A stretch of DNA of 64,000 bases from an uncultured Methylophilaceae bacterium (GTDB lineage Bacteria > Pseudomonadota > Gammaproteobacteria > Burkholderiales > Methylophilaceae), in assembly GCA_913009235.1 (NCBI GenBank), contig CAJVXS010000001.1, forward strand, positions 124,001-188,000, written 5' to 3'. Below the pieces are notes generated by a model that saw only the letters and a list, made by a program, of their open reading frames with translations, was not told the origin of the DNA and did no database searches. Position 1 is the stretch's first letter. Every line of letters starts with the position of its first letter. The translations under genes were made by a program, and so were the position numbers. This document shows, piece after piece, positions 21,657 to 53,639 of this stretch.

Positions 21657-21905
21657 TTATAGATTTATAAATGCAGTTAGTTCATCTATCGTAAAAGGCC
21701 AGTCAAGCTCAGACCAACCAAGTTCTGATAAGTTGTCAGACTTCTGTAATACGGGAATGCGCTCACCATATGTCATTAGCAATTGATTATCATCCGTTAT
21801 CTCAACTAAGGTAAGTAGGTTAATGAGGTTCAGTTGAGTAACTAGATCAGCAGCTTGTTCACATAAGTGGCAATGTGAAGTGATAAATAATGTTAATTTA
21901 AGCAT
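21657..21905 (-). CDS. Glutaredoxin-family protein (DUF836-type)
   Basis: An 82-residue protein with a thioredoxin-like fold start, LTLFITSHCHLCEQA: a CxxC active-site-like pair at residues 12-15. The later TYGERIPVL fits the cis-proline strand (PVL) of the fold. These short proteins are thiol-redox candidates of unassigned substrate. Divergent from mgtE (72-base gap) and convergent with rplQ. Confidence 0.8.
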   Translation of the reverse strand: MLKLTLFITSHCHLCEQAADLVTQLNLINLLTLVEITDDNQLLMTYGERIPVLQKSDNLSELGWSELDWPFTIDELTAFINL

Positions 21906-29702: not shown

Positions 29703-31556
29703 ATGCCTCAGTATCGCTCTAGAACCACCACACATGGCCGCAACATGGCTGGCGCGCGTGCTTTATGGCGCGCAACAGGCATGAAGGACGGTGACTTTGA
29801 TAAGCCTATTATCGCTATTTCGAACTCATTTACACAATTTGTCCCAGGCCATGTGCATTTAAAAGACATGGGTCAGTTAGTCGCGCGTCAAATTGAAAAG
29901 GCGGGTGGGGTGGGAAAAGAGTTTAACACTATTGCCGTCGACGATGGTATTGCGATGGGACATAGTGGCATGTTGTATAGCTTGCCTAGTCGTGATTTGA
30001 TTGCTGACAGTGTTGAATATATGGTGAATGCACATTGCGCTGATGCGCTAGTGTGTATTTCCAATTGTGACAAAATCACCCCGGGTATGCTTATGGCGGC
30101 GCTACGTTTAAACATCCCTGTCATCTTCGTTTCAGGTGGGCCAATGGAGGCTGGCAAGGTGAATTGGCAAGGCGATGTGATGAAGCTAGATTTGGTCGAT
30201 GCGATGGTTGCCGCAGCAGATAACACTGTGTCTGACGAAAAGTCTGAGGCTATTGAACGCTCAGCTTGTCCAACATGTGGGTCATGCTCAGGAATGTTCA
30301 CTGCCAATTCAATGAATTGCCTAACAGAGGCGCTAGGGTTAAGCCTGCCAGGCAATGGTTCAGCATTAGCCACGCATGGCGCACGTAAGGAATTGTTTTT
30401 AGAAGCTGGCCGCACAATTGTTGACTTGGCAAAACGCCATTATGAGCAAGATGATTACAGTGTCTTACCAAGAAATATTGCTAACATGAAAGCGTTTGAA
30501 AATGCGATGGCATTAGATGTGTCTATGGGCGGATCAACTAATACCGTTCTACATTTATTGGCAGCAGCGCATGAAGCTGAAATTGATTTTAAAATGTCAG
30601 ATATTGATAAAATCTCACGCAAAGTTCCTTGCTTAAGCAAAGTGGCGCCAGCGACTGCTAAGTATCATATGGAAGATGTGCATCGTGCAGGTGGTGTGAT
30701 GGGTATTCTAGGAGAGTTAGACCGTGCAGGATTGATTCATCGTGATACGCCAACAGTACATAGTGCAACAATGGGGGGTGCGCTTGATAAATGGGACATA
30801 CAAGTGACACAAGACGAAGAAGTGAAAAAATTCTACCGGGCTGCACCAGGTGGCATTAGAACAACGATTGCTTTCTCACAGAGCATGCTTTACCCAACCT
30901 TAGATGATGACCGTACTGACGGATGCATTCGTGATTTGGCGCATGCCTATTCACTGGATGGTGGGTTGGCTGTGCTGTACGGCAATATTGCATTAGATGG
31001 CTGTATTGTGAAAACGGCTGGTGTGGATGAAAGCATTTTGAAGTTCACAGGACGTGCTCGTATTTTCGAGTCACAAGATGCTTCAGTTGAAGCTATTCTT
31101 GCCGACAAGGTGGTAGCGGGGGATGTGGTGGTTATTCGTTATGAAGGGCCGCGAGGTGGGCCAGGTATGCAAGAAATGTTGTATCCAACCTCTTACCTGA
31201 AGTCTCAAGGACTCGGTAAAGAATGTGCTTTATTAACGGATGGACGCTTCTCGGGTGGTACATCTGGTTTAAGTATTGGGCATGCTTCACCTGAGGCGGC
31301 GGAAGGTGGTGCGATAGGGCTTGTAGAAGAGGGCGATACTATCGAAATTGACATCCCGAACCGCGCGATTGATTTAAAAATTAGTGATGCAGAATTGATA
31401 GAGCGACGCACCAAGATGGATGCAAAAGGAAAAAATGCATGGAAGCCGCTCGACCGAGACCGTCAGGTTTCACCCGCTTTGCGCGCTTATGCGGCGATGA
31501 GTACTAGTGCTGCCTTTGGTGCAGTGCGAGATGTTTCGAAAATTGAAAAAGGATAA
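29703..31556 (+). CDS. ilvD: Dihydroxy-acid dehydratase
   Basis: Fe-S dehydratase making the 2-keto acid precursors of valine, leucine and isoleucine. Cluster cysteines are in [11 protein letters not shown] and [20 protein letters not shown]; the C-terminal domain has [20 protein letters not shown]. The start at ATG 29703 ([20 protein letters not shown]) gives 617 residues, matching the E. coli enzyme (616); an upstream in-frame extension to 29649 is not family-like. The stop codon lies inside a tandem 26-base repeat. Confidence 0.96.
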
Positions 31557-48593: not shown

Positions 48594-49388
48594 ATGGCTA
48601 TATCAGAATCACGTACAAAAACAGGCCTGAGCTGGGTCAGGGAAAGCATAGCTTTATTTAAACAAACGCCAAGACAATGGTTGCTGTTAGCCTTATCCTA
48701 TTTGGGTATATTCGTCTTCATTCCTTCTTTCCCCGGCCTGCAACTATTTTCATTTGTGACCATCTTGATTTGGCCGGTATTTATTGCGATTGCTATGCGG
48801 ATGTATCGTAATGCTGAAGTCCAAAAAGAAGAAAATCTATCAAGTGCCATGCAGTTTATACAACCAAAACTGCGACAGTTGTTGTTATTAGGTTTGGCTA
48901 GTTTGTTGTACTTCATGCTGGTCAGCATTATATTAAGCACAGATTTACAAGTGATTGCAGAATCCATGGAAAAGAAAGCGCAATTGACTGATCAGGAAGT
49001 GGTGCTTGCAATAGTCCAAACAGCGACACCTGTTCTGCTTAAGCTCATCTTATTGTTTATTCCGCTGATGGTGGCCGTCTGGTTTGCACCAATGTTAATC
49101 GCATTTAATGGTTATTCTGTAATGAAATCCATTAAATCAAGCATTGCGGGCTCACTACAGTATATGGTGGAAATGACGGCAGCATGGTTGTTGCTGACTG
49201 CCGGCATCATTTCTCTAATATTGAGTGCTAGCTTAATCGCAAGGCTATTTGCATTGATACAACCAGCCTTTGCACAATCATTAATGACCATGTTGATATT
49301 TGGTTGCCTTTTAGTGAATATCGCGCTCATGTTGGCTTTTCAGTATGTAAGCTATCGTGACATTTTTAGAGCGGCGCCTAACTCATAA
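48594..49388 (+). CDS. BPSS1780-type multi-pass membrane protein
   Basis: A 264-residue hydrophobic protein with about six membrane segments and the N-terminal block ALFKQTPRQWLLLALSYLG seen in the BPSS1780 family of betaproteobacteria. Its start is ten bases after thrB, so it is cotranscribed with it. No catalytic motif is visible and its role is unknown. Confidence 0.8.
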   Translation: MAISESRTKTGLSWVRESIALFKQTPRQWLLLALSYLGIFVFIPSFPGLQLFSFVTILIWPVFIAIAMRMYRNAEVQKEENLSSAMQFIQPKLRQLLLLGLASLLYFMLVSIILSTDLQVIAESMEKKAQLTDQEVVLAIVQTATPVLLKLILLFIPLMVAVWFAPMLIAFNGYSVMKSIKSSIAGSLQYMVEMTAAWLLLTAGIISLILSASLIARLFALIQPAFAQSLMTMLIFGCLLVNIALMLAFQYVSYRDIFRAAPNS

Positions 49389-49405: not shown

Positions 49406-51613
49406 TTAAATCGGCGTGAGTTTTGCAAACTCCAAGGCTAGCCATTTCAACCCTGCATTACCAAAATTGACCTGTACCCGCATATCATCTGCACTACCTT
49501 CATAGCTTACCACAACACCGTTACCAAACTTCTTATGATCGACACTTTGGCCAATCCTCCAAGGCATAGCATTCTTCTGTTCGCTACTTTTAGCATTGTT
49601 CATTCGATGTGGCAACTCATTGTAGTTAGGGCTTCCTGAGCGTTTCACTGGTTTGCTATTAAGACGTTTCAACAGTTCTTCAGGAATCTCATCTAAGAAG
49701 CGCGAAGGAATACCATAACGCACCTTGCCGTGTAACATGCGGCTTTGTGCGTGACTTAAGTATAGGCGTTGCCTTGCACGGGTTACAGCCACGTACATTA
49801 AGCGACGCTCTTCTTCTAAGCCATTACTTTCATACGTGCTTTGCTCATGCGGACATAAGCCTTCTTCCAAGCCGCTAATAAACACGGTTCTAAACTCTAA
49901 TCCTTTAGAGGCGTGCACGGTCATTAATTGTAACGCATCATGCCCGACATTCGCTTGATGTTCACCCGCTTCCAAGCTGGCATGGCTGAGAAATTGTGTC
50001 AGCAAATCTTGCTCAGTATCTCCATCGACATTATTGTGGTTACCAAGATCTTGATTACTGAACGCTACTGCTGCCGTGACTAATTCCTCCAAGTTTTCGA
50101 TGCGATCTTCTCCTTCTTTGGTGCTTTGGTAATAACTTTTCAAACCGGATAAGGTGGTAGCAATTTCAGCGACTTCTGATAGTGAAATCCCATAAGCTTG
50201 ATCTGTCATTTCACGCACTAAGGCAACAAAACCTTCGATTCCTTTTACACCTTTTTTACCATCACCAGCTCGATTAACGGCTGCCTGCCACAAGCTACAG
50301 TCAGCCGCACGCGCTTCTACTTGCAGTTGCTCTAATGTTCGTGCGCCAATGCCGCGGGTTGGGAAGTTAATCACGCGGAGTAGGGCAGTATCGTCATTTG
50401 CATTGGCGATTAAGCGCATATAAGCCAGTGAATGTTTAATTTCCGCCCGTTCAAAAAAGCGTAGGCCACCATACACACGGTAAGGCAGATTGGCTGAGAA
50501 CAGGACATGCTCAATTACTCGAGATTGTGCATTGCTACGATAGAGCATGGCAATATCGCCTAAACTGGTACCTTCAGCATGCAGAATTTTTATTTCATCG
50601 ACAATAAATTTCGCTTCATCGGTATCGTTATAGGCTTCATAAATACGGACTGGTTCGCCCTTGCCTGCTGAGGTCCATAGGTTTTTACCTAAGCGGTTTT
50701 GGTTGTGTGAAATAATGGCATTGGCAGCATCGAGGATATTGCTGTGTGAACGATAATTCTCTTCAAGTTTGACGATATTTTGCACATTAAAATCATTCTC
50801 AAAATCTTGCATATTATCAACACGTGCACCACGGAAACCATAAATAGATTGGTCATCATCACCTACTGCAAACATGCAGTTACTTGTATCTGCAAGTAGT
50901 TTTAACCACATGTATTGTAAACGGTTAGTATCTTGAAACTCATCGACTAAGATATATTGAAAGCGGGATTGGTAGTGTTCGCGAATATGCGCATCCCGTG
51001 CTAATAATTCATAGCAACGTAATAGTAATTCAGAAAAGTCTGCAACGCCTTCACGGTTACATTGATTATCATACTCTGCGTAAATCTCATTTAAGCGTTG
51101 TGAGTGTGCATCATGTGCATCGACTTTGTCCGCACGCAATCCCTCTTCTTTACAGTTGTTGATATAACCTTGCACTTGTTTCGGTGCAAACTTCTCATCA
51201 TCAATGTTCATCAGTTTAAGTAACCGTTTGATGCTAGATAGCTGGTCTGAATTATCTAAAATTTGGAAAGTGCTAGGCAAGCCAGCTTCGCGATGGTGGG
51301 CGCGTAATAAACGATTACACAGCCCATGAAACGTCCCCACCCACATGCCACGTGTATTGATTGGCATCATAGAAGTTAAGCGGGTTAACATTTCTTTTGC
51401 CGCTTTATTCGTAAATGTTACCGCCATCAAACCCATTGGTGAGACCTGCTCAGTTTGAATCAGCCAAGCAATACGGGTTGTCAGTACGCGCGTTTTACCA
51501 CTACCAGCGCCAGCTAAAATCAAAGATGATTGATGCGGTAATGTGACGGCCTCTAGCTGTTTGTTATTCAGTCCGGTAAGCAAAGAATTACTATCAGTAT
51601 TCGGAATACCCAT
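49406..51613 (-). CDS. uvrD: UvrD/Rep-family superfamily 1A DNA helicase
   Basis: 3'-5' helicase for repair and replication restart, 735 residues. Motifs in order: Walker A LILAGAGSGKTRVL, VTFTNKAAKEM, DEFQDTN (Walker B), VGDDDQSIYGFRGA, FPTRGIGARTL, LMTVHASKGLEF and YVAVTRARQRLYLSHA. A C-terminal Tudor-like domain (about 680-735; GQSVDHKKFGNGVVVSYEG) resembles the RNA polymerase contact of UvrD/PcrA. I start at ATG 51613 (MGIPNTDSNSLLTGLNNKQ); an in-frame extension to 51715 is not family-like. Could equally be called PcrA/Rep-like; uvrD is the best guess. Confidence 0.9.
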   Translation of the reverse strand: MGIPNTDSNSLLTGLNNKQLEAVTLPHQSSLILAGAGSGKTRVLTTRIAWLIQTEQVSPMGLMAVTFTNKAAKEMLTRLTSMMPINTRGMWVGTFHGLCNRLLRAHHREAGLPSTFQILDNSDQLSSIKRLLKLMNIDDEKFAPKQVQGYINNCKEEGLRADKVDAHDAHSQRLNEIYAEYDNQCNREGVADFSELLLRCYELLARDAHIREHYQSRFQYILVDEFQDTNRLQYMWLKLLADTSNCMFAVGDDDQSIYGFRGARVDNMQDFENDFNVQNIVKLEENYRSHSNILDAANAIISHNQNRLGKNLWTSAGKGEPVRIYEAYNDTDEAKFIVDEIKILHAEGTSLGDIAMLYRSNAQSRVIEHVLFSANLPYRVYGGLRFFERAEIKHSLAYMRLIANANDDTALLRVINFPTRGIGARTLEQLQVEARAADCSLWQAAVNRAGDGKKGVKGIEGFVALVREMTDQAYGISLSEVAEIATTLSGLKSYYQSTKEGEDRIENLEELVTAAVAFSNQDLGNHNNVDGDTEQDLLTQFLSHASLEAGEHQANVGHDALQLMTVHASKGLEFRTVFISGLEEGLCPHEQSTYESNGLEEERRLMYVAVTRARQRLYLSHAQSRMLHGKVRYGIPSRFLDEIPEELLKRLNSKPVKRSGSPNYNELPHRMNNAKSSEQKNAMPWRIGQSVDHKKFGNGVVVSYEGSADDMRVQVNFGNAGLKWLALEFAKLTPI

Positions 51614-51773
51614 CCGAGTATTATAACGTTTCAACTGACTTATTGCCTTACCAATTACCGAAGTTGGGAACACTCCTTGCGGGTGTGGCGCCTTAGGTCG
51701 GTTGATACAATTCATTACAAAAAAAGTGCAACATGCATGAACTTAAGTGCAATAGCATAGTCCTTAACTACAT

Positions 51774-51880
51774 GGTAACGAGACGGTAATTTTGTTACCT
51801 TTCCGTCTTTCCCCTACGGAAGCCTTCCCAAGAAGGCATTGTGCCCTGGCCGAGTCCTTTCGGTCAGGGCTTTTTTGCGC
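51774..51880 (+). ncRNA. Candidate small RNA with C-rich hairpin loops
   Basis: Three adjacent hairpins on the plus strand: TTCCGT/ACGGAA (51801-51821) with loop CTTTCCCCT; GCCTT/AAGGC (51822-51837) with loop CCCAAG; and CCCTGGCC/GGTCAGGG (51844-51869) followed by six T, a strong terminator. An inverted repeat GGTAAC/GTTACC (51774-51799) precedes them. No coding frame on either strand resembles a protein. The pyrimidine loops can pair with Shine-Dalgarno sequences. It stands between two minus-strand genes, so it would need its own promoter; I could not recognise one. Confidence 0.55.
51844..51876 (+). terminator. Rho-independent terminator of the candidate small RNA
   Basis: An eight-pair stem (CCCTGGCC with GGTCAGGG, one G-U; one further G-C pair inside) and T6 at 51871-51876. 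There is no plus-strand gene upstream for more than 2 kb, so it ends something other than an annotated gene. Confidence 0.8.
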
Positions 51881-52060
51881 TTTGATAAAAGAGAGTAGCA
51901 ATGCTACTTATTCTTTGCCCCACTTTAACAGTAACAGATGTCGCGCGGGAGGTGGAGCGAAGAGTAGCATCTGGACCCTGGACCTCTATATTCCAGGTAA
52001 TGCATACTCTTTAGCAGTGATATGGCACGTTACGATATGTAAGGTTGTATAGTGATGCAA
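51881..52060. other. Intergenic stretch with two small palindromes
   Basis: AGTAGC-AAT-GCTACT (51894-51908) and CCTGGA/TCCAGG (near 51977-51997) are perfect short inverted repeats without T runs. No coding frame or promoter is convincing. Together with the candidate small RNA it makes up the 447-base gap between the helicase gene and ung. Confidence 0.4.
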
Positions 52061-52762
52061 CTAAAGCTGCCAATGAATGGGCTGTTGACCATGTTGGGCT
52101 AAATGTTGATTAATTTGCGAGAATTGGTGGTTACCAAAAAATCCACGATAGGCAGATAATGGCGATGGATGCACTGACTGCAAGACCAAGTGCTTAGTGG
52201 TATTAATCGAAGCGCCTTTTTTCTGCGCATAACTTCCCCATAAGACAAACACTAGGTTTTTACGTTGTGTATTGAGTGCTGCAATCACTGCATCCGTAAA
52301 TACCTCCCAGCCACGCTTTTGGTGCGAGCCTACCCTGGCTTGTTCTACTGTTAATGTTGTATTGAGTAGCAACACGCCTTGTGCTGCCCAGGGCGACAAA
52401 TCACCACCACCACTCATGGTGATGCCAAGGTCTGATGCTATTTCCTTGAAAATATTCACTAATGATGGTGGTGGCTTAATGCCAGTAGGCACAGAGAAAC
52501 TTAATCCATGCGCTTGTCCATCGCCATGATAAGGGTCTTGCCCAATAATGACCACACGGACATCCTCAAAAGGTGTGTGATTGAAGGCATTGAAAATAAG
52601 TGAGTTAGGCGGGTAAATGACTTTGCCAGCAGATTTTTCTTGTTCTAGAAAGTCAGCCAGTGTTTGCATATATGGCTGATCAAACTCTTGGCCGATAGCG
52701 GCCTGCCAAGATGATTGTAGAGATCGGTGCAGAGGTGAGTTTAGTTTGGGTGTTGCTCGCAT
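52061..52762 (-). CDS. ung: Uracil-DNA glycosylase, family 1
   Basis: Removes uracil from DNA at the start of base excision repair. The 233-residue protein has the catalytic motif [20 protein letters not shown] with its water-activating Asp, [10 protein letters not shown] and the DNA-intercalation motif [11 protein letters not shown]. Its ATG is two bases from the stop of a short upstream ORF on the same strand. Functionally complements dut elsewhere in the window. Confidence 0.97.
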
Positions 52763-52763
52763 A

Positions 52764-52865
52764 TTAAGCTTTCTTTATAAAAGAATAGAAATCCAATAGC
52801 CCAACAGATAAAAAGCCTGCTAATGCAACAATCAGTAATATAACTAACGGCTTTTGGTCTTTCAT
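52764..52865 (-). CDS. Possible 33-residue single-pass membrane peptide upstream of ung
   Basis: The frame [20 protein letters not shown] then [13 protein letters not shown] encodes a charged N-terminus, one hydrophobic segment (about residues 7-25) and a basic C-terminus, the usual plan of small inner-membrane proteins. TAA, one base, then the ung ATG suggests coupling to ung. Against it, no good RBS lies before its ATG. Not recognised. Confidence 0.4.
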
Positions 52866-52895
52866 GTTTATACACATGTGAAGGAGATATAAATA

Positions 52896-52973
52896 ATGGG
52901 CGTATTTTTGCAACCCATTTGTTTGTTATTTTTAACGGTGAGACGGATCGCCCAACTCGACCCAGCAGTTTGA
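52896..52973 (+). CDS. Possible 25-residue peptide with strong RBS
   Basis: ATG 52896 follows AAGGAG (52881-52886) with nine bases between, and opens MGVFLQPICLLFLTVRRIAQ then LDPAV. The first half is hydrophobic. It ends one base before the convergent MOSC gene's stop. The RBS is the main support; length makes it uncertain. It could be a leader peptide, a small membrane peptide or chance. Confidence 0.35.
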   Translation: MGVFLQPICLLFLTVRRIAQLDPAV

Positions 52974-53639
52974 TTATATCAACATTTTTAATGAAAGTAG
53001 GCGGTTGCTATAAGCTTGCTGTAGTAACGGAGCTAAGCTTTCAATAGATAGTACCTTTTTTAATATCGCTGTGGGGTTGTTTAGCAGGTTTAAATCTAAC
53101 TTGTATAAAATCAGCGCCGTATGCACGCTAATGGCTTGCGGGTCGCGACTAATTATACTGATCGCATCTTCAGCCTTTACTTTGCCTTCGGTCAGCACGC
53201 GGCAGTAGAATCCACTGCGACCACTATGCAAAAACTGTTTAGTCATGGTTTTATCGCCGAGTTTGTGTGCCAATTTAAAACAAGGGATTCTCGGCATGGT
53301 TACTTGAAATGTAGCTTTACCCATTTTCAACACATCACCAATACACACGTTATCTTCACTCAATCCTGAGATAGTAAAGTTTTCACCAAATGTAGCAACA
53401 GATAAATCCTGCCGCGACAAGGAATTTTGCCAAAAAGCATAATGTTCGAATGGGTAGCAATACACCGCTTGGTGTGGGCCGCCATGCACTTTTTTATCTG
53501 CTTGGTTATCGCCATCCAGACCTAGGAACCTCGCCCAAGTGGCTTCTTGCACAGGTGCTTTGTAAATTCCGGTTAGCACCTCTTCTCCATTAATATTAAC
53601 CTCTTTAGGGGTGGCAACATTCACTGAAACTAGCTTCAT
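52974..53639 (-). CDS. MOSC-domain protein (YiiM-type)
   Basis: A 221-residue protein related to the molybdenum-cofactor-binding C-terminal domain of sulfurases. VHGGPHQAVYCYPFEHYAFW, ATFGENFTISGL and MPRIPCFKLA (candidate molybdenum-ligating cysteine) match YiiM, which acts on N-hydroxylated bases with a reductase partner. Length matches (about 224). No partner gene adjoins. Confidence 0.87.
   Translation of the reverse strand: MKLVSVNVATPKEVNINGEEVLTGIYKAPVQEATWARFLGLDGDNQADKKVHGGPHQAVYCYPFEHYAFWQNSLSRQDLSVATFGENFTISGLSEDNVCIGDVLKMGKATFQVTMPRIPCFKLAHKLGDKTMTKQFLHSGRSGFYCRVLTEGKVKAEDAISIISRDPQAISVHTALILYKLDLNLLNNPTAILKKVLSIESLAPLLQQAYSNRLLSLKMLI

Follow-up and report, generated by a model that had tools for sequence, protein, structure and literature searches.

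The closest described relative of the RNA analysed here is the Rfam family RF02837 (anti-hemB), whose name implies a location beside or antisense to hemB. The literature search on RF02837 found no paper on the family, and the accessible portions of the publications consulted hold only table entries and single passages on the Burkholderia member, in which no function was found. This member, ncS04 of B. cenocepacia, is a 105-nt RNA with a mapped 3′ end that was co-purified with Hfq (accessible portions of PMC4603805 and PMC5688073); none of the seven conditions given in Table 2 of PMC5688073 changed it significantly. Anti-hemB appears as a table entry in the accessible portion of PMC3521395. The RNA is not named in the accessible portion of PMC9549215, and the terms sought are absent from PMC10987360. 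The "anti-HemB" of PMC6515984 is an antibody, not the RNA.

Two other sRNAs are relevant. sX13 (RF02232) acts as a repressor by way of its C-rich loops and of G-rich motifs present at ribosome-binding sites; it is reported to be Hfq-independent, to be always found downstream of polA and, by sequence comparison, to be exclusive to Xanthomonadaceae (PMC3771888, excerpts). ErsA (Pseudomon-1, RF01719) is strictly dependent on sigma22, i.e. AlgU, the functional homologue of sigmaE (PMC7565897 and PMC5819304, excerpts), and represses translation of the porin gene oprD with Hfq (PMC7264166, excerpts). The betaproteobacterial sRNAs of family RF02278 (ncS27; S17 of Bordetella) are similar to the RNA described here in that they carry CU-rich stretches complementary to ribosome-binding sites; S17 follows the same loop logic in this separate group (PMC11722255, excerpts).

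Gene structure and flanking genes

The window is the whole stretch of DNA analysed, 64 kb from an uncultured Methylophilaceae bacterium. A candidate sRNA gene of about 105 nt was found on its plus strand (51770–51876) between uvrD (49406–51715, minus strand) and ung (52061–52762, minus strand). The start (51770–51772) is predicted from promoter geometry and the end is the T run. The product of uvrD is a UvrD/PcrA-type helicase matching TIGR01075 (1000 bits, cut-off 1144) and PRK11773 (959 bits, cut-off 965).

Four hairpins are formed on folding. Hairpin 1 (GGTAACGAGA...TTTTGTTACC, 51774–51799) has 10 bp. Hairpin 2 (51801–51821) has the loop CTTTCCCCT, and CCTCCC stands at the same spot in homologues. 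Hairpin 3 (GCCTTC-CCAA-GAAGGC, 51822–51837) directly abuts hairpin 2. The intrinsic terminator (51843–51876) consists of a 12-bp stem (51843–51870), whose loop is TCCT as against CCCC in most relatives, and of T6 (51871–51876). The minimum free energy is −48.2 kcal/mol versus −27.2 (sd 3.7) in 200 dinucleotide shuffles (z −5.6, no shuffle as low). A consensus scan found 5 terminator-like sites in 51000–53000 (2.1 expected), and the site at 51843–51876 has the most pairs. The R1 model matches 51772–51877 with 98.7 bits, the window copy itself being part of that model.

An earlier sequence-only reading of 51774–51880, whose letters agree with the window, had proposed two abutting short hairpins and a strong plus-strand terminator with T6, without any plus-strand gene for more than 2 kb upstream. 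The fold confirms both hairpins (51801–51821 and 51822–51837), the terminator is recovered by scan and fold alike, and the nearest upstream plus-strand ORF of at least 60 aa ends at 49388. The loop CCCAAG that it assigned to the second hairpin includes the C-G closing pair, and the fold gives CCAA. Its starting point, 51774, is the first base of a hairpin, but this 5′ hairpin (51774–51799) had been missed, as had the sigmaE-type promoter upstream. The regulatory RNA of about 80–110 nt that it suggested agrees with a plus-strand RNA of about 105 nt with C-rich loops; the possible lineage-specificity attached to it does not hold (see below). The C-rich loop of the window copy is an unusual derived form, which was not visible to that reading.

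An 86-aa ORF (51792–52052) overlapping the RNA is taken to be a mechanical ORF, since the loops and spacers of homologues vary in length without keeping to multiples of three. Judged by the sequence evidence, the locus appears to be a real, conserved sRNA gene.

Relation to RF02837

No Rfam family reaches its cut-off anywhere in the 64-kb window. When 201 bases were scanned with greater sensitivity, RF02837 was the one family to match significantly, at 51800–51878 (31.4 bits, E 6.3e-6; cut-off 49.5 bits). SdsR, Spot 42, atoC and the remaining Rfam matches to the window copy are weak (all E 0.15 or worse). The RF02837 score of the copy is 22.7 bits in the whole-genome search, and the order-wide search at E up to 1e-4 gives no RF02837 match in the window's own genome. 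The match covers model positions 1–81 of 81, with the same order of parts (hairpin, hairpin, terminator hairpin and U run), and the length of ncS04, 105 nt, is about equal to that of the window copy. The first model hairpin has the consensus CUCCUCCCU, with a CCTCCC loop, whereas the window copy has CTTTCCCCT, and the copy lies between uvrD and ung, not at hemB. Because its score is below the cut-off and its loop differs, the window copy is not classed as a full RF02837 member.

The RNA was found by blastn in five same-genus genomes at E 6.8e-6 or better. The orthologs at the same locus score 64.9 (G002), 55.7 (G005), 54.5 (G003) and 50.4 bits (G004), and one is below the RF02837 cut-off (G001, 48.1 bits). 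Since four of the five exceed it, the locus is assigned to RF02837 and the window copy is considered a diverged ortholog. All six genomes of the genus carry one copy each, according to a model built from eight Methylophilaceae sequences, these six included.

RF02837 was found in 106 of 150 genomes of the family at E up to 0.01 and above the cut-off in 88 (controls: 5/14 and 0). Five weak matches in genera g13 and g15 (20–25 bits) are on contigs other than that of uvrD and are probably due to chance, which makes 88 the more reliable figure. Across the order, 281 of 399 genomes match at E up to 1e-4 and 244 exceed the cut-off (controls: 1/14 and 0). The RNA is therefore not lineage-specific, as had been suggested as possible. 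Nor is it undescribed: its alignment with RF02837 spans the entire model, and ncS04 has a mapped transcript of 105 nt (PMC5688073 and PMC4603805, accessible portions). Plain DNA similarity has a shorter reach. Among 61 genomes searched by blastn at E up to 1, matches were found in 37; outside the genus none is credible, all being short stretches at E 0.02 or worse.

RF02278 was rejected as an identity. It is a separate family (double-hairpin or "toxic" sRNA), to which the window copy scores 16.2 bits (E 0.45, cut-off 50 bits). No RF02278 match was found in the window's genome, which is incomplete, at E up to 0.001, nor in the genus; a single one of 25 Methylophilaceae genomes gave a match, with a score under the cut-off.

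Conservation of structure, location and loops

Covariation was measured on 43 aligned homologues, eight of which had built the model; the alignment is fitted to the model, so the structure is favoured in this test. Standard pairs occupy 95.0% of the pair cells. Double-sided changes are found in 26 of 34 pairs and in 216 cells (55.7 in shuffles), and the covariation score is 0.374 (0.144 in shuffles, 0.027–0.063 in slid controls); no shuffle out of 500 is as high on any measure. Double-sided changes affect 11/11 modelled pairs of hairpin 1, 4/8 of hairpin 2, 4/5 of hairpin 3 and 7/10 of the terminator. Compensatory changes, which the sequence-only reading had proposed to look for in relatives, are thus present in all four helices.

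The synteny it had also proposed to check is observed as well: uvrD adjoins the RNA in 36/36 Methylophilaceae loci (35 distinct places, L048 repeating L004). It also lies beside the RNA in 6 further loci, two of which (L111, L125) repeat L046 and L045. ung was matched in only 2/36 of the Methylophilaceae loci. One sRNA locus of the family shows full identity with Methylovorus mays along 3,089 bases, which identifies the family as Methylophilaceae.

All 29 Methylophilaceae RNAs that were folded (29 of the 36 loci, near-duplicates omitted) form four hairpins. CCTCCC is found in the hairpin 2 loop of 28 of them, the window copy being the exception with CTTTCCCCT, and CCCC in the terminator loop of 27, the window copy having TCCT. 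The closing pair of hairpin 2 is T-A in the window copy versus C-G in genus relatives, and the stem is intact. Loop conservation in L091–L210 follows from the way they were chosen, these loci being among the matches listed from a pattern scan that demanded a CCTCCC loop.

A putative sigmaE-type promoter

Upstream of the sRNA, the sequence has the appearance of a sigmaE (RpoE)-type promoter. Its −35 element, TGAACTT, is at 51738–51744 (plus strand) and its −10 element, GTCCTTA, at 51760–51766 (plus strand), 15 nt past GAACTT, with GTC at 51760–51762. The consensus of E. coli sigmaE is GGAACTT-N15/16-GTCTAA. The arrangement ATGAACTT-N15-GTC is found upstream of 6/6 genus copies, with a constant spacing of 15 nt. 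The RF02837 model does not cover this stretch.

Two forms of the motif, which was chosen after seeing sequences, were counted in the 125 nt upstream: strict, GA?AAC[TC]-N16-18-TC[ACT]NA, and loose, GA?AAC[TC]-N15-19-TC[ACT]. The window copy is outside the count; of the two forms, it has just the loose one. After rows with an identical upstream stretch had been removed, 158 of 167 remained, and 19 loci were left out of the strict count (6 without T run, 6 without stem, 4 with upstream cut, 2 with N and 1 without core; the latter is L005, whose promoter was read separately). The strict motif is present in 88/158 loci: 3/4 genus loci, 25/26 further non-redundant Methylophilaceae loci (0.20 expected from shuffles) and 25/29 other loci of the order (0.28 expected), L031–L060 and L061–L090 being the best-scoring of their searches and not a random draw. 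The remaining loci are named records, grouped by hand from their titles. The motif occurs in 6/6 Oxalobacteraceae-like records, 8/11 of Burkholderia, Paraburkholderia and Pandoraea (3/11 lack it), 3/7 Gallionellaceae/Nitrosomonadaceae-like records and 18/48 others, a group that includes L171–L210 and holds Comamonadaceae-looking and possibly false records. It was found in 0/27 Comamonadaceae-like records, though the RNA is present; sigmaE control is therefore not universal. The loose motif is present in 4/4 genus, 26/26 family, 27/29 order and 48/99 named-set loci. Random 125-nt windows of the same loci contain the strict form in 0.5–1.6% and the loose form in 3.0–4.9% of cases.

The gene of the sigma factor, rpoE (TIGR02939), was found in 40/41 genomes, the window's own included, where it is preceded by TGAACTAATCACAGTTTAACTGTGTCT. 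The strict sRNA motif is found upstream of rpoE in only 4/30 loci. A form ending in [GA]TC[TA], chosen after reading rpoE upstream sequences, fits 30/36 rpoE loci (0.59 expected in shuffles) and 42/59 sRNA loci among L002–L090 (0.48 expected in shuffles); the window copy does not fit it. The sRNA and rpoE promoters therefore resemble each other without being identical.

Reduced forms in streamlined relatives

In genus g15, whose genomes are 1.0–1.4 Mb, 8/10 genomes retain, beside uvrD, GAACT-N-TCA, one hairpin with a CCTCC loop and a terminator; the RNA is absent from the other two. The reduced sRNA is about 70 nt long (L321–L323, L328–L332), and its terminator is shared with a facing gene that is groEL-like by its repeat tail (read by eye). 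The Methylophilaceae model was run on three of the reduced loci and detected none of them; the inference of their descent is therefore based on location and components. The promoter, the anti-Shine-Dalgarno loop and the terminator are, by their retention in g15, the parts kept longest, and it is in this respect that the streamlined versions are instructive. In g13, the RNA is absent beside uvrD in 8/8 loci, one of them viewed over only about 310 nt, although the g13 genome G017 keeps rpoE. G025 has a diverged full copy (36.4 bits) that the family search missed; in G016 no uvrD was found.

Relatives across the class

In the class, which we take to be the Gammaproteobacteria of GTDB, RF02837 matches 105 of 274 genomes at E up to 1e-4, 13 above the cut-off (controls: 1/14 and 0). 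From the upper part of this list, 40 places in 40 genomes of 34 families, none of the same order, were picked by hand. Within 150 nt upstream, the loose motif is present in 37/40 (2.3 expected) and the strict motif in 27/40 (0.33 expected). Both forms were in use before this set was gathered, which makes it the cleanest test, and the promoter is independent evidence at class level since RF02837 does not cover that stretch. The Methylophilaceae model finds 40/40 of these loci at E 0.0035 or better, the loci having been preselected with a related model; its sole match at E up to 1 in 24 unrelated loci has 13.4 bits (E 0.14).

Twenty class-level loci were compared with Rfam. RF02837 matches 20/20, 8 of them above its cut-off. 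Below the respective cut-offs, sX13 matches 6 (best 37.9 bits, E 1.1e-4), ar14 matches 5 and ErsA matches 3 (best 30.3 bits, E 0.005). The same comparison also yields low-scoring hits to families that are unrelated (Streptomyces Scr3202, GcvB, Atu_C7), and the links to sX13, ErsA and ar14 are accordingly suggestive and not proof. The sX13 and ErsA models do not match the window copy (51700–51900) at E up to 5, nor, with E limited to 0.05, any of 12 loci from the family and the order, so that any homology rests on intermediates. The ar14 model, an alphaproteobacterial one, matches L365, L374, L360, L350 and L346 with at most 40.5 bits, below its cut-off, which hints that the family may reach the alphaproteobacteria.

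Neighbours were examined in 16 class-level loci with 2-kb flanks, the largest upstream ORF being scanned in 13. polA lies upstream on the same strand, within about 300 nt, in 7/13, and YihA/YsxC is downstream of one further locus. This is also the constant location reported for sX13, whereas the window copy is between uvrD and ung. ErsA too lies downstream of polA. The window RNA is like sX13 in having C-rich loops, those of sX13 repressing G-rich ribosome-binding sites. ErsA has a sigmaE-class promoter; the window copy has TGAACTT-N15-GTC at 51738–51762, a loose form recognized by sequence only. The window RNA may work like ErsA and sX13 and may be their distant homologue.

Proposed function and alternative explanations

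The locus probably encodes a trans-acting sRNA of the anti-hemB lineage with an RpoE/sigmaE-type ECF promoter, whose C-rich loops would block Shine-Dalgarno sites, probably with Hfq. Envelope stress would free sigmaE, and the sRNA would accumulate from its promoter and end at the intrinsic terminator. The C-rich hairpin loops would then pair with G-rich Shine-Dalgarno sites, probably with Hfq, and translation of a set of mRNAs would be blocked, probably those of envelope and transport proteins, as with ErsA in Pseudomonas and sX13 in Xanthomonas. The common loop, UCCUCCC, which we take to resemble the anti-Shine-Dalgarno sequence of 16S rRNA, can by its complementarity pair with GGGAGGA. The T6 tail fits an Hfq-dependent trans-acting sRNA, binding itself being predicted.

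What is new here is above all the sigmaE-type promoter, and further the breadth of the distribution, the reduced forms and the altered loop; the family itself is already known. Its name, anti-hemB, is misleading. No sigmaE-dependent sRNA of betaproteobacteria was found in literature listings, and to our knowledge none is established; the sigmaE link would give RF02837 a testable role in many betaproteobacteria.

Preferential pairing with porin mRNAs was also considered. Binding of the CCUCCC loop is stronger at 28 porin starts than at 869 control ORF starts (mean −8.7 versus −7.1 kcal/mol, p 0.002), but the Shine-Dalgarno strength of porin starts is also higher (p 7e-5); the test is therefore confounded and proves nothing.

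An unlikely alternative is a housekeeping or growth-phase sRNA of the anti-hemB lineage, in which GAACTT-N15-GTC would be conserved for some other purpose, such as a different ECF factor or a repressor site, and RpoE would not read it. The Comamonadaceae-like records without the motif (0/27), the unchanged level of ncS04 in all seven conditions (PMC5688073, accessible portion) and the rarity of the strict sRNA motif upstream of rpoE (4/30) are what would be expected from such an RNA, and other ECF factors exist, given a second, sub-cut-off TIGR02939 match in G022 and G041. Against this, a single form fits 42/59 sRNA and 30/36 rpoE loci, as sigmaE autoregulation would require, the 15-nt spacing is constant in the genus and the loose motif is found at 37/40 class-level loci. 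That the feature is no separate sRNA but a cis element belonging to uvrD, or a terminator that happens to serve read-through from elsewhere, is very improbable: the constant adjacency of uvrD in Methylophilaceae (36/36) would suit it, but the sRNA is divergent from uvrD, on the opposite strand, has its own promoter motif and is preceded by no plus-strand ORF of at least 60 aa for 2.3 kb, and outside Methylophilaceae the neighbours differ, polA being upstream in 7/13 class-level loci scanned.

The altered loop bears on a further explanation. With CCUCCC lost, the window copy may be drifting, and the gene could be a relic decaying in the window's species after loss of function. Hairpin 2 no longer has its CCUCCC, nor the terminator loop its CCCC, which 28/29 and 27/29 of the folded RNAs keep, and the RNA is absent beside uvrD from 8/8 g13 loci and from 2/10 g15 genomes. 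Yet the four stems, T6 and GAACTT-N15-GTC are all intact, both bases that close the changed hairpin differ from those of relatives and still pair, and the new loop is still C-rich, so that decay is given only a small probability. The window copy is interpreted here as an RNA that functions and whose loop has been retuned (UUUCCCCU), which implies shifted targets. With the change of the main loop from CCUCCC to CUUUCCCCU and a terminator loop without CCCC, the targets are expected to have moved away from GGGAGG-type sites towards those of AGGGG type. The window copy would in this way be a natural loop-swap experiment.

A wider scenario is advanced tentatively, at somewhat less than even confidence as a whole. 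Anti-hemB, sX13 and ErsA would be one ancient, class-wide, sigmaE-controlled sRNA family that blocks Shine-Dalgarno sites by C-rich loops and corresponds to MicA and RybB of enterobacteria. The place downstream of polA may be the ancestral one, and in betaproteobacteria the gene would have moved from there to uvrD or hemB. sigmaE control would have been lost in Comamonadaceae, the RNA pared down in streamlined methylotrophs and the pairing loop retuned in the window's species. If the link to ErsA and sX13 is true, three separately named RNAs become one family. No paper linking anti-hemB to sigmaE or ErsA was found in the literature listings examined.

Additional sequence features

A block, ACAATTCATTACAAAAAA, lies at 51707–51725, immediately before the promoter. 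Most of it is conserved in the genus copies, and a similar block is found in L056 and L058. It may belong to the uvrD promoter, or serve as an UP element or as the site of a regulator. Two other TGAACT-type motif matches are present in the window, at 30628 (inside a long gene) and at 21684 (inside an 82-aa ORF); neither is in front of a transcript. L099–L101, L103 and L158 (Variovorax, Ramlibacter, Caenimonas) keep the core of the sRNA but have, by eye, a sigma70-looking TTGAAAC...GTTAAATT in place of the motif. A palindrome, GGTATATCATACC, possibly a repressor site, is found in the promoter region of L102, L135, L140, L148, L150 and L154 (Paraburkholderia, Pandoraea). Two tandem copies of the sRNA are present in L136 (Nitrosospira briensis), and G796:C3:217579-218301 and G705:C33:13148-13886 contain four sRNA matches each.
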